A stretch of 46,579 nucleotides of DNA from contig JACRBC010000097.1 of NCBI GenBank assembly GCA_016213245.1, positions 1 through 46,579 of the forward strand, in the 5' to 3' direction. The notes under the pieces are model-generated. The model was not told the origin of the DNA, searched no databases, and worked only from the letters and a program-made list of their open reading frames with translations. This stretch comes from Candidatus Solibacter usitatus (GTDB lineage: Bacteria; Acidobacteriota; Terriglobia; Bryobacterales; Bryobacteraceae). The position numbers were made by a program, and so were the translations under genes. Below are positions 3,975-41,721 of this stretch, piece after piece; position 1 is the stretch's first letter, and each line of letters begins with the position of its first letter.

Positions 3975-5480
3975 CTAGCGGCGCTCGGCCGTCCCCTTCG
4001 GCCGTTTCCGGATCTCCTCGGGGAACTCCGAGGCGGGCGAGCGGTCCGGGCTGCGCAGATTCTGCTGCCCGCCCCGGTCGCGCTGGAGCGGGATGTTCAT
4101 GCCGCCGGTCTCTTCCAGGATGTCGAAGAGGCGCTGGCGCATCTGTTTCACGATGCCGGCATGTTGCTCGCTGAAGATGAGGTTGCGGCTTTCGAGCGGG
4201 TCCTCCCGCAGGTCGTACAGCTCGTCGAGGTCCCACAGCCCCTGGCAGCGGATGAACTTGTAGCGGTCGCCGCGCAGGGCGTGGATGGTCGGCGTCTGCG
4301 GGAAGCTGCGCTCCCAGTAGTATTCGTAGAGCAGCTCCTTGCGCCACTCGGCCTGTTTGCCCTGCGCCAGGGGAAGCCAGCTCCGGCCGTCCAGCCCGCT
4401 GGGCGCCGTCGCGCCGGCGGCGTCGAGCACCGTGGGCATAATGTCGAGGTTGGCCACCACCTGGTTCACCGTGCGTCCGCCGCCGAAGAGCTCCGGGCAG
4501 CGCGCCAGCAAAGGAACGCGCATCGATTCCTCATAGGCCGTGCGCTTGTCGATGAGGCCGTGCTCGCCGAAGGCGAAGCCGTTGTCGCCCATGTAGACGA
4601 CCAGCGTGGAGTCGAGTTCGCCGCGCCTGTTCAGTTCGCCGAGCACGCGCCCGACGCTGTCGTCGACGCCCATCAGCGTCTCGGCGTACTTCTTGTAGTA
4701 GCCGGCGATGTCCAGCTCGGAGTGATACGGGTACTCGACGCCGTGCCAGGAGTTCCTCTGGTTCCGCACCCACATGGGGCGGTGCTGCGCCATCTCGCCG
4801 GTGGCCGCCATGGTGGGCGGATAGACGAAGCGGGCGTCCTTGTAGCGGCCCTTGTGCCGCGCGGCCGGCTCGAATTCGGCGTGCACGGCTTTGTGCGACA
4901 GGTACATGAAGTACGGCTGCTCCTTCGGCAGCATGCGCAGCCAGTCCAGCGCGTAATCGGTCAGCTCGTCGGTGATGTAACCCTTCTGCGGCACCTTTCT
5001 GCCGTTCACGTTGAGCCCGTTCGGATTCGGCAGGTAGGCGCCCTGCCCGCGGAAGCTCACCCAATGATCGAAGCCCGGCTTGGGGTCGTCGCTTTCAGCG
5101 CCCATGTGCCACTTGCCGAAGAAGCCGGTCTTGTACCCGGCCTTCTGGAGGTGGGACGGGAAGAAGACGGTTCCCTGCGGGATGGGCGTGCTGTTGTCCA
5201 CGATGCGGTGCCTGTGGGCGTAGACGCCGGTGAGGATGGACGCCCGGCTGGGGCTGCACAGCGCGGTGGTCACGAAGGCGTTCTTGAAGTGCGCGCCTTC
5301 GCCCGCCAGCCGGTCCAGTTGCGGCGTCTCCAGCCAGGGCTGCGCCTTCAGAAAGCCGAGCGCGTCGTAGCGGTGATCGTCGCTCAGGATGAAGATGACG
5401 TTTCTGCGCTTCTTCGTTTGCGCTCCGGCCAGCGCCGCGGCTCCAGTTAATGACGCCAGAGCTTCTCTCCGGTTGATCAT
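3975..5480 (-). CDS. Type I sulfatase (arylsulfatase/choline-sulfatase family), exported
   Basis: 501 residues, close to the usual size for S1-family sulfatases. After an N-terminal signal (residues 1-20, INRREALASLTGAAALAGA, Tat-like but lacking a perfect twin-Arg motif) comes NVIFILSDDHRYDALG with metal-binding D34 and D35. LCSPSRASILTG follows, whose C75 in C-S-P-S-R is the residue converted to formylglycine. GKWHMG and MGDNGFAFGEHGLIDKRTAYEESMRVP supply the remaining active-site residues. It should hydrolyse sulfate esters, probably on a carbohydrate, in the periplasm. It is the last gene of a minus-strand run, 11 bp behind an enolase-superfamily dehydratase and in the same run as a second sulfatase, which fits a catabolic unit for a sulfated sugar. 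I chose ATG 5480 because the longer frame upstream lies inside the preceding gene. Confidence 0.9.
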   Translation of the reverse strand: MINRREALASLTGAAALAGAQTKKRRNVIFILSDDHRYDALGFLKAQPWLETPQLDRLAGEGAHFKNAFVTTALCSPSRASILTGVYAHRHRIVDNSTPIPQGTVFFPSHLQKAGYKTGFFGKWHMGAESDDPKPGFDHWVSFRGQGAYLPNPNGLNVNGRKVPQKGYITDELTDYALDWLRMLPKEQPYFMYLSHKAVHAEFEPAARHKGRYKDARFVYPPTMAATGEMAQHRPMWVRNQRNSWHGVEYPYHSELDIAGYYKKYAETLMGVDDSVGRVLGELNRRGELDSTLVVYMGDNGFAFGEHGLIDKRTAYEESMRVPLLARCPELFGGGRTVNQVVANLDIMPTVLDAAGATAPSGLDGRSWLPLAQGKQAEWRKELLYEYYWERSFPQTPTIHALRGDRYKFIRCQGLWDLDELYDLREDPLESRNLIFSEQHAGIVKQMRQRLFDILEETGGMNIPLQRDRGGQQNLRSPDRSPASEFPEEIRKRPKGTAERR

Positions 5481-17504: not shown

Positions 17505-18539
17505 ATGCCCCAGTTGGTTACACGCCGCGGCCTGTTCGGCGCATCGGCCGGTCTCATCCTCGCGTCACGCACGCTTCGAGGCTCCAGCGGCTCGGCCGCG
17601 GGGCTGATTCAGGGCGCCAGCCGCCGCGCCAACATCACCGAGGCTCTGCGCCTCGTCGACAAGGAAATCGCCGCCGGGCTGAAGGGGAAGAAGTCCGTCG
17701 TCATCAAGCCCAACATCGTCAACACCCAGCGCCAGCTCGCCTCCACTCATGTCGACGCATTGCAGGGCATCCTCGACTATCTCGCCCCTCGCTGGAAGGG
17801 GCCCGTCTTCATCGCCGAGTCCTCGGCCGGCTTCACCACCGAGGGCTACGACAACTTCAAGTACCAGCTCGCCGCCGACGACCACAAGCGGCTCAACGTC
17901 AAGCTCGTGGACCTCAACGAAGAGGCTCTTTTCGAGACCATCTATCTCCTCAACGGCGACCTCCACATCCAGCCCGCGCGCCTGGCCAAGCGCCTCTGCG
18001 ACCCCGGCGCGTTCGTCATCTCCAGCAGCATGCTGAAGACCCACAACACCGTCATCGCCACCATGAGCATCAAGAACATGGCGCTCGGCTCGCCTCTGCA
18101 CTACAAGCGCGGCGAGACCAAGCGCTGGAACGACAAGCGGATCTACCACGGCGGCGTCCGCCAGACCCACTACGACATCATGCGCACCGCCGAGCGCCTG
18201 CGCAAGAACTGGGGCGTGGCCGTCATCGACGGCTGGGAGGGCATGGAAGGCAACGGGCCCAATTCCGGCACGCCCGTCGACCACCGCGTCGCCATCGCCT
18301 CCACCGACTTTCTCGCCGCCGACCGCATTGGCGCCGACGTCATGGGCATCAATCCCGAGTGGCTCGGCTACCTCGACTGGTGCGGCAAGGTGGGCGTCGG
18401 CGCCTGGGACCGCGCTCAGATCGAGGTCCGCGGAGAAACGCCGGAGAAGGTCGCCAAAAAGTACCGCCTCCACACCGATATCGATCGCGAGCTGCAGTGG
18501 ATGGGCCCGCTCACGGAGTTGCCGCCGAAACTCGGCTGA
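17505..18539 (+). CDS. DUF362-family protein, Tat-exported
   Basis: 344 residues. The N-terminus VTRRGLFGASAGLILASRTLRG is a Tat signal. The body matches DUF362: KKSVVIKPNIVN, FIAESSAGF, ISSSMLKTHNTVIATMSIKNMALG and GWEGMEGNGPNSGTPVDH. DUF362 proteins often accompany ferredoxin-like domains, but this one has no CxxC clusters of its own, and the divergent aldo/keto reductase carries such clusters instead. Function is not established for the family. I chose ATG 17505 because it begins the signal and has GAGG upstream; an earlier ATG at 17436 lies inside the divergent gene. It heads a three-gene plus-strand unit. Confidence 0.85.
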   Translation: MPQLVTRRGLFGASAGLILASRTLRGSSGSAAGLIQGASRRANITEALRLVDKEIAAGLKGKKSVVIKPNIVNTQRQLASTHVDALQGILDYLAPRWKGPVFIAESSAGFTTEGYDNFKYQLAADDHKRLNVKLVDLNEEALFETIYLLNGDLHIQPARLAKRLCDPGAFVISSSMLKTHNTVIATMSIKNMALGSPLHYKRGETKRWNDKRIYHGGVRQTHYDIMRTAERLRKNWGVAVIDGWEGMEGNGPNSGTPVDHRVAIASTDFLAADRIGADVMGINPEWLGYLDWCGKVGVGAWDRAQIEVRGETPEKVAKKYRLHTDIDRELQWMGPLTELPPKLG

Positions 18540-35597: not shown

Positions 35598-36854
35598 ATG
35601 CAGATCACGCGCGTCTCCACCGCCGTCATCGAGTCCAACTTCGACTGGGTCCTGGTGCGCCTGGAGACCGACGCCGGCCTCGCCGGCTTCGGCGAGGCCT
35701 TCCTCGGCCCCGGCGTCAGCGGCGTCATCCGCTCCTTCAACGAGGTCCTGGTAGGCGAGGATCCCATCCACATCGACCGCCTCATCCGCCGCATGCGCGC
35801 CTGCACCGTCTACGCCGCGCCCGGACTGGTCTTCCACGCCATCGGCGGCATTGAAACCGCCATCCTGGATCTGCTCGGCAAGGCCTACCACATGCCCGTC
35901 TGGCAGATCCTGGGCGGCAAGTACCGCGACGATGTGACCATCTACGCCGATTGCCACGGCGGCGATGCCCTGGAGTCCATCACCCCGCTGCTCAAGCCGC
36001 GTACGCCATCCTGGATGGAGCAGCCCGGCGCCGGCGCCGAGTCGCGCGTCAGCATCAAGCATCACGGCTGGGACGCCTCGCAAACCCTCGATCTCGCCCC
36101 CGCGCAGTATGCCCAACGAGCCGCCGCCATGGCCGCCCGCGGTTTCCGCATCCTCAAGTTCGACGTCGATGTGCCCACGCCCTACGAAACCGACGAATAC
36201 AACCGCTCGTTGAGCCCCCAGGAGGTCGACTTCGCCGCCTCGCTCGCCTCGGCCGTGCGCCAGGCCGTCGGGCCTGAGGTCGGCTTGGCCATCGACTGCC
36301 ATTGGAACTACGGCGTTGCCGCCGCCATCGACCTGGCCCGCGCCCTGGAGCCGCTCCGCCTGCTCTGGCTCGAAGACGTCTGCCCGCCGGAAAACATCGG
36401 CGCCCTGGCGCAGGTGCAGCGGGCCACAAGGACGCCCCTGGCCACCGGCGAAAACCACTTCTTCCGGCTCGACTTCGAGCGCCTCATCACCGAGGCGGGA
36501 CTGCGCGTGCTGGCGCCCGACGTCCAGAAGATCGGCCTCTGGGAAGGCAGGAAACTGGCCGACCTGGCCGACCTCCACTACGTCAACCTCACCTGGCACA
36601 ACATCAGCTCGCCGCTCGGCACCATGGCCGGAGTCCACCTCTGCGCCGCCACGCCCAACGTCCTTGCCCTCGAATGGCACGCCGCCAGCGTGCCCTTCTT
36701 CGACGACCTGATCAAAACAGGCGACCGCCCCATGATCGACGGCGGCAAGGTGCGCGTCCCCGATGCCCCCGGCCTGGGAGTGGAGATCGACCTCGACGTC
36801 GCCTGGAAGTACAGAAAGCCAGGCGAGCCGTTCTTCGACGCTCCTGGCTCCTGA
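35598..36854 (+). CDS. Enolase-superfamily sugar-acid dehydratase or racemase (mandelate racemase subgroup)
   Basis: 418 residues without a signal peptide, so cytoplasmic. The capping domain (1-120) holds IGGIETAILDLLGKAYHMPVWQILGGK. The barrel holds LKFDVD (K187, D189), AIDCHWNY (D233, H235), LWLEDV (E259) and ATGENHF (E285); the metal ligands are again 26 and 26 apart. APDVQKIG (D308) and LTWHNISSPLG (H334) give the Asp-His dyad of the mandelate-racemase subgroup, which is not clearly seen in the ManD-like enzyme at 5492. The last motif ALEWHAASVPFFDDL is typical of galactonate/galactarate-type members. It starts 32 bp after the peptidase gene and ends 14 bp from the convergent peroxiredoxin gene. 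Confidence 0.88.
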   Translation: MQITRVSTAVIESNFDWVLVRLETDAGLAGFGEAFLGPGVSGVIRSFNEVLVGEDPIHIDRLIRRMRACTVYAAPGLVFHAIGGIETAILDLLGKAYHMPVWQILGGKYRDDVTIYADCHGGDALESITPLLKPRTPSWMEQPGAGAESRVSIKHHGWDASQTLDLAPAQYAQRAAAMAARGFRILKFDVDVPTPYETDEYNRSLSPQEVDFAASLASAVRQAVGPEVGLAIDCHWNYGVAAAIDLARALEPLRLLWLEDVCPPENIGALAQVQRATRTPLATGENHFFRLDFERLITEAGLRVLAPDVQKIGLWEGRKLADLADLHYVNLTWHNISSPLGTMAGVHLCAATPNVLALEWHAASVPFFDDLIKTGDRPMIDGGKVRVPDAPGLGVEIDLDVAWKYRKPGEPFFDAPGS

Positions 36855-36868
36855 CTCCTGTCTTCTGA

Positions 36869-37414
36869 CTACTTCTTCTTCACCCGCGCGCAGGCCGTCG
36901 CCGCACCGTCCGGGTTCACCGCCGCCGAGCCCTCCTCAATGTGCTGGATCTTGCCGTCGGCATCCACCACGAACGTGGCGCGGTTGGCGTAGCCGGCGTC
37001 TTTGTTCAACACGCCGTAGGCTTCAGACACCTTGCGCTGGCTGAAATCGGAGGCCAGCGGAAAGGACAACTTCAACTCTTCCTTCGACCAGTGACTCAGC
37101 GCCGGCAGGTTGTCGGTGCTGATGCCGATGACCACCGCGCCCGCTTCTTCAAATTTGGCGAGACCAGCCTGGTACGCCGTGAGTTCCTTCGTTCAACCAC
37201 CGGTAAAGGCGGCCGGGAAGAAGGCGACCACCACGGTCTTCCCCTTCTGCTCAGAGAGCTTGAACGAACCGCCCGTGGTCGTCCGCAGGCTGAAATCAGG
37301 CGCCGTCTCGCCTACTTTGAGGTGTGTCTTCGGCGGAGCCGGCGCCTGCCCCGGCAGCATGCCGGCGGCCAGTACCGTTCCTACCGCCAATCCCAGAAAT
37401 GAAGTGATCCTCAT
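36869..37414 (-). CDS. Predicted exported selenoprotein peroxiredoxin (in-frame UGA as selenocysteine 74)
   Basis: 181 codons read through one in-frame TGA (37195-37193). A signal peptide (1-23) precedes LKVGETAPDFSLRTTTGGSFKLSEQKGKTVVVAFFPAAFTGG, then TGA, then TKELTAYQAGLAKFEEAGAVVIGISTDN and a normal peroxiredoxin C-terminus ending in CARVKKK (C175). In peroxiredoxins the position after FTGG is the peroxidatic cysteine (FTPGCTKE/FTGGCTKE), so the stop falls exactly on the catalytic residue; read as Sec, the whole fold is intact for 107 further residues. A stem-loop fit for a SECIS lies 22 nt downstream. AAGGGAG precedes ATG 37414. Selenocysteine would make a fast peroxidase in the periplasm. 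Sec-peroxiredoxins are known, but this one would usually be annotated as two pieces (37193-37414 and 36869-37135). A TGC-to-TGA nonsense mutation is the alternative. Confidence 0.85.
37157..37178 (-). promoter_or_regulatory. Candidate bacterial SECIS stem-loop
   Basis: On the minus-strand RNA, GGCG (37178-37175) pairs with CGCC (37160-37157), and ACC (37173-37171) pairs with GGU (37165-37163), leaving an apical loop AGGCU; a fourth A-U pair would shrink the loop to GGC. Exactly 22 nt separate the UGA from the loop, inside the 16-37 nt range for bacterial SECIS elements, and the loop begins with A-G-G, supplying the early G that SelB recognises. It is inside the coding region, as in Escherichia coli fdhF. 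The pairing is seen; SelB binding is inferred. Confidence 0.65.
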
Positions 37415-37644
37415 CGACTCTCCCTTCCTCCGGCCGTCCCGGCCTTCCCCGGAACGCGCGCGCTTGTCTTCTTGGGGTTGAGCATAGCAGAGCCGCCGGC
37501 CCGGCGGCATCGCCTTCCGGGCCGCATTTCTCTCTCGCCCGCCACCGCCCGCTCCGATAAGGCTACGTGAGCCGCCGTCGCGAACCCGGCGCCGGCAAGC
37601 CGTGCCACCGTCGGGAGGCCAGGCGCCAATCAGGAGGCAGAACA

Positions 37645-38202
37645 GTGCAAGCAGCGGCAGTGCTGGAAAACGTCGCGGCCAAAGCGCGGCAGGGCAAGTA
37701 CCTCGTCTTTCACCTCGGCCGGGAAGAGTTCGGCGTCCATGTGCTGAAGGTGCGCGAGATCATGGGCCTCCAGGAGATCACCAGCGTCCCTCAGACGCCC
37801 GAGTTCGTCCGCGGCGTCATCAACCTGCGCGGCAAGGTGATCCCGGTCATCGACTTGCGGCGCAAGTTCCGCATGGAGGACGTCGAATACACCCAGCGCA
37901 CTTGCATCATCGTCCTGCAGGTGGCCATGGAGAGCGGAGCGTTGCTGATGGGGGCCGTCGTGGACGGCGTCTCGGAGGTGCTCACCATCCAGGAAAACGA
38001 GATCGAAGATACTCCGCAGTTCGGCGAGGAGATGACCACTCCCTACATCCTCGGCATGGCCAAGGTGAAGGGCAAGGTGAAGATCCTGCTCGACATCGAT
38101 GAAGTACTGTCCCACCAGGAGGTGCGCGGGCTGGAACACCTTCCGCATGCCGGCGCGGGAGCGGCCTCTGGAAGCGCCTGCGCGGGAGGCGCCCGGTCAT
38201 GA
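37645..38202 (+). CDS. cheW: CheW coupling protein (copy 3), first gene of the main che operon
   Basis: 185 residues, GTG start at 37645 with AGGAGG eight bases upstream. It carries the CheW core KYLVFHLGREEFGVHVLKVREIMGLQEITSV, RGVINLRGKVIPVIDLRRKF and GAVVDGVSEVLTIQ, then a Gly/Ala-rich tail of about 25 residues. It differs from the two copies at 27560 and 28272 chiefly in the tail and in RMEDVEYTQRT, so each copy may serve a different array. It is divergent from the selenoprotein gene over 230 bp. Its stop overlaps the next ATG. Confidence 0.95.
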   Translation: MQAAAVLENVAAKARQGKYLVFHLGREEFGVHVLKVREIMGLQEITSVPQTPEFVRGVINLRGKVIPVIDLRRKFRMEDVEYTQRTCIIVLQVAMESGALLMGAVVDGVSEVLTIQENEIEDTPQFGEEMTTPYILGMAKVKGKVKILLDIDEVLSHQEVRGLEHLPHAGAGAASGSACAGGARS

Positions 38203-38441
38203 CCGGCCGTACCGCTGATTTGAACCAGCCGGGCCTCGTCAAGTGGGATGCCCATATCAAGGGCCGGCGTTTCGAAGCAGTCTCCAAGGAGCAGCCGGAG
38301 ATCTTCCGGCCGCTCTTCGAACGGATGCTGAACAACGCCGCTGAGATGTCCCCGGCCGCCAGTGCCGCCGGGGACCGGAACGTCGAGACGGCGGCCCCGG
38401 CGCGCACCGTTATCCCCTTGGACGACTTCAGGGATTCCTAG
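38199..38441 (+). CDS. Small unknown protein between cheW and cheA
   Basis: 80 residues. The ATG overlaps the cheW stop (ATGA), with GGGAGG upstream, and the gene ends 28 bp before cheA. The N-terminal half (HIKGRRFEAVSKEQPEIFRPLFERMLNN) is probably helical and charged, and the C-terminal half is flexible. I know no family for it. Translational coupling on one side and position inside the operon argue for a chemotaxis-related role, perhaps a coupling or regulatory peptide; this is inference. Confidence 0.6.
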   Translation: MTGRTADLNQPGLVKWDAHIKGRRFEAVSKEQPEIFRPLFERMLNNAAEMSPAASAAGDRNVETAAPARTVIPLDDFRDS

Positions 38442-38469
38442 CAGCAGGCCGCCCCCAAAGGAGCCATCC

Positions 38470-40305
38470 ATGGCAACACGCAAGTCCAACATCCTGGCCG
38501 GCGGCGCGGTGAAACACCCCGCCGAACCGCAGCCGGAACGGCCGCTGACCGCCCCTCCGGACGTAATCGAAGCCATGCAGGCGCTCGATCAATCCATGGT
38601 TTCATCGCCGGAACCCTTGACCAGCCTGAACCAGGACCCGCAGTTGGTGCAGGATTTCCTGGTCGAGGCGCGCGAGCACCTGAGCAACATCGAGGCGCGC
38701 ATGCTGGAGCTCGAGCAGGGCACCCAGACCGAGGAGACGCTGCACGCCGCCTTCCGCAGCTTCCATACCATCAAGGGCCTGGCGGGCTTCCTGGATTTCA
38801 GCGTCATGCAGGACGTTTCGCACGAGGTCGAATCGCTCCTGGACCTGGCGCGCACGGGCCAACTGGCTCTCGACCCGGCCCGCGTCGACGTCATTCTCCA
38901 GTCCGGCGACTACCTTTCCGGCTGGCTCAACCATATCGAGCAGGCCCAGCAGGGCCGTCCGTCCAGCACCCCGCATCCGCCGGCCGATCTGATCAGCAAG
39001 GTGCGCGCCACGGCTTCGTCCGACCAGCCGCCCCCATCGCCGGGGGCCGCCGACGCCCCTCCCCAGCCGGCCGCCGACGCCCCTCCCCAGCCGGCCGCCG
39101 ATGAACCCGGCGCCACCAGTCAGGGGCCGCGCGGCGAAACCTCGCTGCTCAAGGTGGAAACGGCCAAGCTCGAGTATCTGGTCGACATGGTCGGCGAACT
39201 GGTCATCAGCCAGTCGATACTGCGCCATACTCCGGAGCTGAGCGAGGTGAAGTCCCCGCGCCTGCAGCGCAATATCGCGCAACTGACGCGCGTCACCGCC
39301 GAGATCCAGAAGACGGCCATGTCGATGCGCATGGTGCCCATCGGCCAGCTCTTCCGCCGCATGTCACGGCTGGTGCGCGACCTGTCGCGCAAGTCCGGCA
39401 AGCTGGCCGAGCTGGAGATGTGTGGTGAAGACGTCGAACTGGACCGCACCATCGTCGAGGAGTTGTCCGATCCGCTGGTCCATATGCTGCGCAACTCCAT
39501 GGACCACGGACTGGAAAGCCCCGCCGAACGCGAAGCCGCCGGCAAGCCGGCCTCGGGCCGCATCCGCCTCACCGCCGCCCATCAGGCCGGCCAGATCGTG
39601 GTCGGCGTCAGCGATGACGGCCGGGGACTGGACCGCCACAAGATCCTGCGCAAAGCCGTTGAGCGCGGCTTGCTCCAGCCGGACTCCACGCTTACCGATA
39701 ACGAGGTCTATCACCTGATCTTCGAGCCCGGCTTTTCCACCGCCGAAAAGGTGACCGACGTCAGCGGCCGCGGAGTGGGCATGGACGTGGTGCGCAAGAA
39801 GGTCAACCGGCTGCGCGGGCGTATTAATATCACCTCACAACTCGGCGCCGGGACAACTTTTCATCTCGAGGTGCCGCTGACGCTGGCCATCATCGACGGC
39901 CTGGTGGCGTTGGTGGGGGGCGAGCGCTACATTGTTCCCATCTTCGCCGTGCGCGAGATGTTCCGCCCCACCGCCGGCCAGTTGTTCACCGTCGAGAACC
40001 GCGGCGAGATGGCCCTGGTGCGCGAGCGCCTGCTGCCGGTGCTCAGGCTGGGACGGCGCCTGGGCGTAAAACCCAAGTCGGAGGACCCTTGCCAGGGCCT
40101 GATGATCGTCGGCGAGAGCGGCGACCGTACCTTCTGCCTGCTGGTCGACGAGTTGGTCGGCAAGCAGGAGGTGGTCATCAAGAGCCTCGGCGAGACGTTT
40201 CAGGGCGTGGCGGGAATCGCCGGCGGAGCCATCCTCGGCGACGGCCGCGTCGGCTTGATTCTGGACCTCTCCACTCTGGCCTCCGGAGTCAGCCATGCCG
40301 CCTGA
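38470..40305 (+). CDS. cheA: Chemotaxis histidine kinase CheA (no P2 domain visible)
   Basis: 611 residues. The P1/Hpt domain at about 55-165 has FRSFHTIKGLAGF with the phosphorylated H99. A Pro/Ala/Gln-rich linker (165-225), with short DNA repeats, stands where many CheA proteins have the CheY-binding P2 domain. P3 dimerisation (KLEYLVDMVGELVISQS) follows, then the HATPase P4 (HMLRNSMDHGLE, GVSDDGRGLD, STAEKVTDVSGRGVGMDVV) and the CheW-like P5 to the end (VGGERYIVPIFAVREMF). It phosphorylates CheY and CheB in response to receptor arrays. AAAGGAG lies before ATG 38470. Its last 11 bp overlap cheR. Confidence 0.95.
   Translation: MATRKSNILAGGAVKHPAEPQPERPLTAPPDVIEAMQALDQSMVSSPEPLTSLNQDPQLVQDFLVEAREHLSNIEARMLELEQGTQTEETLHAAFRSFHTIKGLAGFLDFSVMQDVSHEVESLLDLARTGQLALDPARVDVILQSGDYLSGWLNHIEQAQQGRPSSTPHPPADLISKVRATASSDQPPPSPGAADAPPQPAADAPPQPAADEPGATSQGPRGETSLLKVETAKLEYLVDMVGELVISQSILRHTPELSEVKSPRLQRNIAQLTRVTAEIQKTAMSMRMVPIGQLFRRMSRLVRDLSRKSGKLAELEMCGEDVELDRTIVEELSDPLVHMLRNSMDHGLESPAEREAAGKPASGRIRLTAAHQAGQIVVGVSDDGRGLDRHKILRKAVERGLLQPDSTLTDNEVYHLIFEPGFSTAEKVTDVSGRGVGMDVVRKKVNRLRGRINITSQLGAGTTFHLEVPLTLAIIDGLVALVGGERYIVPIFAVREMFRPTAGQLFTVENRGEMALVRERLLPVLRLGRRLGVKPKSEDPCQGLMIVGESGDRTFCLLVDELVGKQEVVIKSLGETFQGVAGIAGGAILGDGRVGLILDLSTLASGVSHAA
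39046..39103 (+). repeat. 24-bp tandem repeat in the cheA linker
   Basis: GCCGCCGACGCCCCTCCCCAGCCG occurs twice in direct succession (39046-39069 and 39070-39093), with the start of a third unit after it, encoding repeated ADAPPQPA. Copy number may vary between strains because the unit is in frame (8 codons) and falls in a flexible linker. Confidence 0.8.
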
Positions 40306-41188
40306 GTCCCCAACGCTCGCGTCCTTCATGGCCGGCCTGCCCGCTTCGGCGCGCCTCAGCCGGAGCGCGTTTGAGGAGATCCGGACCCTGGCCCGCCAAG
40401 TCTTCGGACTCGACCTGAAGCAGGGCAAGGAGAGCCTGGTCAGCGCCAGGCTGGGCAAACGCGTGCGGGACCTGGGACTGCAGGACATCCCGGCCTATCT
40501 GGACTACGTGCGCGCCGACCGCTCGGGCGCCGAGCTGTCGGCCCTGATCGACGCCCTCACCACCAACTTCACCAGCTTCATGCGCGAGGCCCAGCACTTC
40601 ACCCATCTGCGAGAACGAATCCTCCCTGCTTTGGAGGCCCGGCCGGCCGCCTTCACCATCTGGAGCGCCGGCTGCTCCACCGGCGAGGAGCCCTATAGCA
40701 TCCTGTTCCAGTGCGCCGAAGCCCTCGGCCTTCCGCGGCTTGATTCGCTTCGCCTGTTGGCCACCGACATCTCCACCCGCGTTCTGGCCGCGGCGCAGTC
40801 CGGCGTGTTCACCGCCGAAAGGCTGAAGGACCTGCCCCAGGCCTGGCACCGCCGCTACTTCCGGCGCGGCGAGGGAGCCAGCGCGGGCATGATGCGCGTG
40901 CGGCCGGAGTGGCGCCAGCGTGTCAGCTTCGCCCGCCTCAACCTCATGCAGGACTTCTCCCGGCTGCCGCAGTGCGCCGTCATCTTCTGCCGCAACGTCA
41001 TGATCTACTTCGACAGGCCCACCCAGGAGCAGCTCGTGCGCCGCTTCGCCGCGCAACTGGAGCCCGGCGGCTGGCTGCTCGTCGGCCACTCCGAGGGGCT
41101 CATGGGCTTCCAGCACGGCCTGGACTGCATTCTGCCCGCCATCTATCGCAAGCCGGGCCGGGCGCCGGCCAAACGGAGCGCCTCATGA
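40295..41188 (+). CDS. cheR: CheR methyltransferase
   Basis: 297 residues. An all-helical N-terminal part (to about 95) with LTTNFTSFMREAQHF precedes a Rossmann S-adenosylmethionine domain (WSAGCSTGEEPYSI, LLATDIS, VIFCRNVMIYFD, LVGHSEGL). It methylates receptor glutamates for adaptation. It starts 11 bp inside cheA and ends overlapping cheD (ATGA at 41185-41188). The C-terminal peptide of the upstream chemoreceptor at 25886 is a candidate docking partner, but the two genes are 13 kb apart. Confidence 0.95.
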   Translation: MPPESPTLASFMAGLPASARLSRSAFEEIRTLARQVFGLDLKQGKESLVSARLGKRVRDLGLQDIPAYLDYVRADRSGAELSALIDALTTNFTSFMREAQHFTHLRERILPALEARPAAFTIWSAGCSTGEEPYSILFQCAEALGLPRLDSLRLLATDISTRVLAAAQSGVFTAERLKDLPQAWHRRYFRRGEGASAGMMRVRPEWRQRVSFARLNLMQDFSRLPQCAVIFCRNVMIYFDRPTQEQLVRRFAAQLEPGGWLLVGHSEGLMGFQHGLDCILPAIYRKPGRAPAKRSAS

Positions 41189-41721
41189 ACGCCCTGGTGG
41201 TCGGAGTGGGCGACTGCCGGGTGACCGGCGATCCGGACGCCGAACTGGTCACCTACGCCCTGGGCTCCTGTATCGCCGTCGCCATCTGGGATCCGCTGTC
41301 GAAGGTCAGCGGCATGCTCCATTTCATGCTGCCCGATAGCGGCGTCGACCGCCAGACCAACGGGCGCAACCACCCCTACCGCTACGCCGACACCGGCACG
41401 CCGCTGCTGTTCCAGGCCGCCTACCGCCAGGGCGCCGACAAGCGCCGCCTCGTCGTCCGGCTGGCCGGCGGCGCGGCGGTGGTCAACGATAACGGCGTGT
41501 TCAGCATCGGCAAGCGCAACTACGCCGCCCTGCGCAAAATCCTGTGGAAAGCCGGCGTGCTCATCCATGGCGAGGACATCGGCGGCTCTGTCTCGCGCAC
41601 CATCCGCCTGGAGGCCTCCAGCGGCCGCCTCCTGGTTCGCGCCCCAGGCCAGCCCGAACGCGAACTGGCGGCGCACCCCGGCGCGGCCCGCAGCGCCGCC
41701 CTCAACGGAGGTGTGCAATGA
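41185..41721 (+). CDS. cheD: CheD receptor deamidase
   Basis: 178 residues. TYALGSCIAVAIWDP carries C29 and GMLHFMLPDS carries H46; the 17-residue spacing equals that of the catalytic Cys-His pair in characterised CheD proteins, which deamidate receptor glutamines. Family members also bind CheC-type phosphatases, and a CheX gene lies two genes downstream. The start overlaps cheR and the stop overlaps cheY (ATGA both times). The C-terminal 30 residues are an Arg/Ala-rich tail. Confidence 0.92.
   Translation: MNALVVGVGDCRVTGDPDAELVTYALGSCIAVAIWDPLSKVSGMLHFMLPDSGVDRQTNGRNHPYRYADTGTPLLFQAAYRQGADKRRLVVRLAGGAAVVNDNGVFSIGKRNYAALRKILWKAGVLIHGEDIGGSVSRTIRLEASSGRLLVRAPGQPERELAAHPGAARSAALNGGVQ

Follow-up and report, generated by a model that had tools for sequence, protein, structure and literature searches.

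PrxU of Eubacterium acidaminophilum was reportedly described as a selenocysteine (Sec)-containing peroxiredoxin in 2001. Among the Cys-containing families, peroxiredoxins of the PrxQ/Bcp type are defined by having another Cys five positions C-terminal to the peroxidatic Cys. In the parts of the literature accessible to us, Sec-peroxiredoxins with a TxxU motif are an established bacterial family within PF00578 (PMC13188914), of which 12 members were counted in 2006 (PMC1794560) and 91 selenoproteins from 78 organisms in 2016 (PMC5029168). The same accessible text names the Prx-SUH thiol peroxidase as another peroxiredoxin selenoprotein (PMC13188914), and reports three Sec-peroxiredoxins in Anaeromyxobacter dehalogenans and, for the Acidobacteria in 2006, four selenoproteins from three families (PMC1794560). 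A 2025 tool paper, as far as its available text goes, tested one acidobacterium with three known selenoprotein genes (PMC12013277). A description of an exported Sec-peroxiredoxin with a C-terminal Cys was not found in the literature searched, which included the available text of PMC13188914, PMC5029168, PMC9312934, PMC1794560 and PMC1914089.

The gene described here lies at 36869..37414 on the minus strand of a 46,579-nt stretch of Candidatus Solibacter usitatus DNA (contig JACRBC010000097.1), hereafter called the window. From the ATG (37414-37412) to the TAG stop (36871-36869) it spans 181 residues, with an in-frame TGA (37195-37193) at codon 74 that we read as Sec. A purine-rich stretch before the ATG, GGAGGAAGGGAGAG (37418..37431, minus strand), is a probable ribosome-binding site. 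Translation table 11 yields two broken ORFs in the peroxiredoxin frame (37193-37510 and 36869-37135); the original prediction had supposed that gene callers would split or discard the gene. The read-through protein matches the full Pfam AhpC-TSA profile (PF00578, positions 1-124 of 124) with 127.9 bits (E 2.7e-37; cut-off 26). The TGA had been predicted to fall exactly at the peroxidatic Cys, and alignment with Cys homologues places the codon (37193..37195, minus strand) on the peroxidatic-Cys column, which is invariant in our 40-row alignment A1; the coordinates were likewise right, and the strand, which had been left unstated, is minus. Sec74 is found in the context PAAFTGG-U-TKELTAYQ. The active-site motif thus reads P67-AAF-T71-GG-U74, i.e., PxxxTxxU, in which the T and the Sec/Cys site are invariant and the P nearly invariant in A1. 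The codon of Thr71 (alignment column T47) is located at 37202..37204 and that of Arg145, also invariant (column R121), at 36980..36982, both on the minus strand; we take Arg145 to be the probable Arg of the peroxidatic pocket. Although seemingly broken by a stop codon, the gene is very probably intact, coding for an exported enzyme that removes peroxides and carries Sec in its active site. It is highly probable that the product is a peroxiredoxin-type peroxidase. As a whole, the best explanation is very likely an exported peroxiredoxin with a peroxidatic Sec74 and a probable C-terminal resolving residue, Cys175.

The protein shares the PF00578 domain, the PxxxTxxU motif, a peroxidatic Sec and the occurrence of Cys homologues with Sec-peroxiredoxins of the TxxU type such as PrxU, as these are described in the available parts of PMC13188914 and PMC1794560. 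It differs from them in having a predicted signal peptide and a Cys about 100 residues after the Sec, neither of which appears in the Sec-peroxiredoxin accounts that we found, in so far as their text was available. Against the PrxU model (NF040737) it scores 80 bits, where the cut-off is 270; against Prx-SUH (NF045827) 54.6 bits, where the cut-off is 298; and against the typical 2-Cys AhpC (TIGR03137) 69.8 bits, where the cut-off is 272. Altogether, 14 NCBIfam models were matched at E<=0.001 and none of them at its cut-off. With the frame broken in two and no NCBIfam cut-off reached, annotations of these bacteria may well lack this exported antioxidant enzyme. The PrxQ-type Cys at +5 is absent from all 49 homologues carrying TGA at the site (hereafter TGA rows), and in this protein Sec74 is followed by TKELT. 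We therefore class the product as a selenoperoxiredoxin of the TxxU type, predicted to be exported, that has an AhpE/Bcp fold and probably a resolving Cys near its C-terminus; Sec-peroxiredoxins themselves are already known.

Residues 1–24, MRITSFLGLAVGTVLAAGMLPGQA (37343..37414, minus strand), are predicted from hydropathy to form a signal peptide, with an approximate cleavage site read by eye. The mean hydropathy of the N-terminal core is 2.29 for the gene itself and reaches at least 1.6 over 10 residues in 102 of 104 family rows, a lenient measure as the start codon was picked for the highest value; the other two rows, L057 and L141, are just below 1.6. Export of the protein is therefore predicted, and we consider it likely. 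Exported selenoenzymes are known, for example FdnG of E. coli and the periplasmic NiFeSe hydrogenase, so there is nothing novel in the export of a Sec protein as such.

Leaving aside the Sec position, the read-through protein has a single Cys, Cys175 (36890..36892, minus strand), which lies six residues from the C-terminus and is probably the resolving residue. In 48 of the 49 TGA rows, exactly one Cys follows the Sec, at +98 to +105 and near the C-terminus; the sole exception is a planctomycete locus, L115. A single C-terminal Cys is also present in all 25 parsed loci from a wider draw of the phylum (29 given, of which the motif missed four; offsets 97 to 105) and in every one of 25 Myxococcota loci (5 Sec, 20 Cys; offsets 97 to 100). 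As it accompanies Sec and Cys forms alike across the phylum and the Myxococcota loci, the C-terminal Cys seems to predate the present state, Sec or Cys, of the site. An exported Sec-peroxiredoxin with a C-terminal Cys had been expected to be unusual. This expectation did not hold up, since the architecture recurs in Acidobacteriota and, with Sec as well as with Cys, in the Myxococcota loci examined. Because Sec forms of this architecture occur in Myxococcota, the Sec-peroxiredoxins of Anaeromyxobacter dehalogenans may belong to the same family.

The AlphaFold2 model, built with the 40-row alignment, has a pLDDT of 92.0 and a pTM of 0.89. In the 157-residue construct that was modeled, the Sec position is residue 50, at the start of helix 49–59, and the Cys is residue 151, inside the C-terminal helix 145–156. 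The best PDB neighbors in Foldseek are Sulfolobus Bcp4 and Mycobacterium AhpE (TM ∼0.88), and phmmer matches to the PDB begin at E 1.4e-24, those to AhpE at 9.4e-23. The protein is thus close to AhpE and Bcp/PrxQ in sequence and fold, but carries Sec where those have Cys. The structure of AhpE is titled a 1-Cys peroxiredoxin, and its place among the nearest structures by both sequence and fold favors a 1-Sec peroxidase of the AhpE type, in which Cys175 would not resolve the Sec and would serve in structure, dimerization or a substrate adduct instead. We regard this as possible but on balance doubtful, as the family, unlike AhpE as titled, has a conserved C-terminal Cys, the only one after the Sec and at a near-fixed distance from it in all three sets of loci counted above. 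Cys175 is therefore somewhat more probably the resolving residue, and by analogy with the 2-Cys peroxiredoxins we favor a selenenylsulfide between Sec74 and Cys175. In the proposed catalytic cycle, the protein would cross the inner membrane before acting. The selenolate of Sec74, at the helix start of the AhpE/Bcp-type fold, would then reduce H2O2 or organic hydroperoxides, and the resulting selenenic acid would be resolved by Cys175 of the C-terminal helix to give the selenenylsulfide, formed either inside a single subunit or across two subunits, which a thioredoxin-like or Dsb-type reductant of the periplasm would reopen.

According to the available text of PMC13188914, some selenoproteins that have this Pfam domain are thiol:disulfide oxidoreductases with a UxxC motif, and the shared domain would allow the protein to be an envelope Sec oxidoreductase instead of a peroxidase. 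Such a role is improbable, as the read-through protein contains neither a UxxC nor a CxxU motif, its own motif is PxxxTxxU with the T and a later Arg invariant, and its fold matches peroxiredoxins. The TGA is present in all nine genomes of the host genus, the host included. In a set comprising the host and 60 relatives, tallied by hand, 50 of 61 genomes hold a TGA-bearing match at E<=1e-28; five of the remaining 11 hold a stop-free form only and six have no match at this threshold, and two of the 50 (G021 and G044) hold both forms. Of 396 genomes drawn from the phylum, the host among them, 53 were matched at E<=1e-28; the TGA is present in each of the 54 matches listed.

Of 130 homologous loci, 120 of them distinct, 49 carry TGA at the site and 71 encode Cys there by TGC or TGT. 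FTGGCTKE was one of six patterns used in scanning the contig collection, which biases the sample toward Cys forms, and 49 versus 71 is thus not a frequency. The Cys homologues from Bryobacterales and Myxococcota share the hydrophobic N-terminus, the FT[GSPR]G[U/C]T motif and the single C-terminal Cys, but differ in the site codon and mostly lack the RNA stem described below. Downstream of the TGA, dN/dS is 0.085–0.296 against 11 relatives, and the changes are mostly at third positions; this half of the gene is live coding sequence under purifying selection. The two broken ORFs of table 11 and the incompleteness of the host assembly (3.83 Mb in 153 contigs, 78.6% complete) could point to a nonsense mutation, pseudogene or sequencing error in an ordinary Cys peroxiredoxin, a reading that we reject as scarcely credible because the TGA and the downstream frame are conserved across genera, the downstream dN/dS values are low and the codons after the TGA are tied to an RNA stem.

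Conservation of the frame does not name the residue that is inserted. The original prediction had proposed to search the host for the Sec machinery, to look for Cys/Sec alternation at codon 74 and to see whether the downstream half has decayed. All three bear out Sec: the homologues alternate between TGA and Cys codons at codon 74, no decay is seen, and the machinery is present. The host genome contains one match above the family cut-off for each of tRNA-Sec (78.8 bits; ARAGORN likewise calls it tRNA-SeC, anticodon tca, i.e., UCA), selA (487.9 bits), selB (354.6 bits) and selD (362.2 bits). The host selD (L017, C129:54283-55188) itself bears a TGA, in the context KAAG-TGA-ASK, read KAAGUASK. 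Across the 61 genomes, in counts tallied by hand, selA was found in 49 of the 50 TGA genomes versus 8 of the 11 others when contig-edge fragments were counted (Fisher p 0.016), and in 47 of the 50 when they were not (p 0.066), which is only suggestive of a dependence of the TGA form on selA. The one TGA genome in which no selA above the cut-off was found, G025, is an assembly of 1030 contigs with 7% contamination.

Downstream of the TGA a stem-loop, GGCGUACCAGGCUGGUCUCGCC (37157..37178, minus strand), is located within the codons of the TAYQAG stretch. It has a GGC tri-loop (37169-37167), four upper pairs, an interruption and four lower pairs. According to the available text of PMC13188914, a bacterial SECIS element (bSECIS) has an apical loop of 3–9 nt with a G in its first two positions, an upper stem of 4–16 bp, a distance of 16–37 nt from the UGA and an MFE of -7.5 or lower. 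The stem-loop of the gene agrees with these rules, with a 3-nt loop, a 23-nt spacer from the TGA and -10.1 kcal/mol in a 54-nt fold. Across the family the stem has the consensus GCG-UACC-A-GGC-U-GGUA-U-CGC or a variant of it, ∼18 to 38 nt past the first base of the TGA. Insertion of another residue such as Trp, by read-through or reassignment, would explain the conserved frame equally, and we consider it highly implausible and reject it given the tRNA-Sec with SelA, SelB and SelD, the occurrence of Cys and not Trp in homologues, the bSECIS, and the several family genes that end in TGA, which imply that these lineages have not reassigned TGA in general. With the machinery, the Sec/Cys alternation, the undecayed downstream half and the conserved bSECIS, which the original prediction had not looked for, all in its support, we regard the recoding of codon 74 as Sec, as originally proposed, as almost certain.

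The two sides of the stem co-vary (UACC/GGUA, UAUC/GAUA, UUCC/GGAA). With L115 set aside, all five upper pairs are formed in 33 and four of the five in 15 of 48 TGA rows. By comparison, at least four are formed in only two (L043 with five, L135 with four) of 31 Cys rows, the subset of the 71 in which the C-terminal Cys motif is present. An 8-pair structure was scored for covariation on 41 of the 48 TGA rows, the same sequences from which it was drawn. It has 89.6% paired cells, 26 cells in which both sides have changed, and a covariation score of 0.245. These three values were not reached in any of 500 shuffles, and slid versions of the structure were also lower in them; the number of extra pair types was unexceptional, being as high in 354 of 500 shuffles. 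RNAalifold, unaided, recovered only the four innermost of the eight pairs. The stem also forces rare synonymous codons. At codon 9 of the stretch after the TGA, Ala is encoded by GCT in 36/36 TGA rows versus 12% elsewhere in the same genes, and at codon 10 Gly is encoded by GGT in 35/37 versus 18.7%; the Cys rows have mixed Ala and Gly codons at these positions. Under a synonymous-codon null, 45 of 48 TGA rows reached p<0.05 versus one of 31 Cys rows. The rows are related by descent, and these pair and codon counts are therefore not independent events.

Folding energy was of little use as evidence for the element, which is why we relied on pair counts and the synonymous-codon null. The 61-nt fold of the gene has a z of 0.47. 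Of three windows at the element, one favored the TGA rows (mean z -0.92 versus -0.50, p 0.049) and two gave slightly lower energies for the Cys rows (p 0.73 and 0.085), as did, more clearly, a control window 60 nt further on (p 0.004). A covariance model of the stem gave a single convincing hit among the 150 scored candidates of the host genome, namely the bSECIS site (E 4e-15; next 3.06). On the phylum loci it scored 25 of 29 at E<=2.6e-8, including L155, which is identical in the stem stretch to a training row, and the other four weakly (E 0.0098 to 0.18). In these four loci and in the five TGA rows from Myxococcota, the hairpins differ or few of the stem pairs form (two or three of five upper pairs in the Myxococcota rows). 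Over 45 nt, four phylum rows have folding energies (-6.7 kcal/mol in three, -6.9 in one) above the published limit of -7.5. This particular stem is thus not universal across the peroxiredoxin family. The five Myxococcota loci (L187, L192, L199, L201, L203) combine TGA and the same protein architecture with different hairpins, e.g., GCGUACCGGGACCGGUAUGC in L192, so that in this group the protein may have been retained and its RNA signal built anew.

A quick tree was computed from 74 rows (48 Sec, 26 Cys) after the columns of the site and the SECIS had been left out. The two site states require at least 11 changes on this tree, and the topologies with all Cys rows (p-AU 1.3e-4) or all Sec rows (p-AU 4.1e-5) in one clade were both rejected. 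A wider quick tree of 140 rows, with few columns and 50 of its 137 inner branches open, requires 12 changes, at least four of them forced by strong branches; change counts give no direction. Several Sec/Cys switches have thus occurred in the family. One locus, L043, which encodes the same protein as L071, has TGC at the site and keeps the full stem (5/5 upper and 3/3 lower pairs, CAGGCTG; synonymous null p 0.004 to 0.006), and its genome contains selA. This suggests a recent Sec-to-Cys reversal with a possible SECIS fossil, but no other of the 31 Cys rows tested does as well, and one such p in that many rows would arise by chance in about 1 case in 6. A second locus, L032, forms 3/5 upper pairs and uses GCC and GGC instead of GCT and GGT (synonymous null p 1.0), in a genome that is 62% complete and in which no selA above the cut-off was found; as evidence of reversal it proves nothing. 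The 2006 survey, in its available text, counted five Cys-to-Sec and no Sec-to-Cys conversions among peroxiredoxins and described such replacements as mostly unidirectional (PMC1794560), whereas the present family hints at reversals. It offers a natural Sec/Cys series of one extracytoplasmic enzyme in which the RNA signal is kept, partly kept or gone, which makes it directly testable why Sec is kept or lost.

The planctomycete locus L115 (Planctomycetaceae NAT155, match 4001-4453) is a related gene for an exported peroxiredoxin whose TGA occupies the equivalent position; it has Cys at +4 and +48 and lacks the C-terminal one. Its sister L098 has Cys at the site, and selA in the L115 genome scores 549.7 bits; L115 is perhaps a separate gain of Sec. 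An apparent second, decayed tandem copy of the peroxiredoxin gene was seen upstream of L145 (G012 C8 ∼143256-143519).

It is quite possible, if a little doubtful, that these loci form an envelope selenoperoxidase family, widespread in Acidobacteriota and Myxococcota, with one Sec, one C-terminal Cys, many exchanges and at least one Sec-to-Cys conversion leaving a SECIS fossil (L043), and that the peroxidase, together with SelD, may be a main reason why the host genus keeps its Sec machinery. For formate dehydrogenase (TIGR01591), the matches listed, down to about E 1e-39 and nearly all below that family's cut-off, carry no TGA in the nine genomes of the host genus, and carry one in at least 30 of the other 52 genomes. 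At least one genome of the host genus, G004, contains a more distant TGA-bearing peroxiredoxin-like match, and the exported peroxiredoxin as the main user of Sec is therefore only a possibility. Distant peroxiredoxin-like matches with an in-frame TGA were also seen in G011, G017, G019, G031, G033, G057, G058, G059 and G060; judging from these matches, further selenoproteins may be encoded in all ten genomes. When the window was scanned for additional genes split by TGA, the sole candidate, at 18537, was rejected as an ordinary gene end; the scan missed the peroxiredoxin itself and so carries no weight as a negative result.

No conserved redox-partner neighbor was seen around the gene and 34 related loci, and a promoter scan found no promoter. 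Apart from the peroxiredoxin and antisense frames, the only neighbor clusters of at least four loci were those of the gene itself with its near relatives (L050-L054), and one long ORF occurs near the peroxiredoxin in five loci at a changing distance. In the window, the gene is flanked by a convergent mandelate racemase/enolase-type gene (35598-36854) and, beginning divergently beside it, by the chemotaxis genes cheW, cheA, cheR and cheD (37645-41718).
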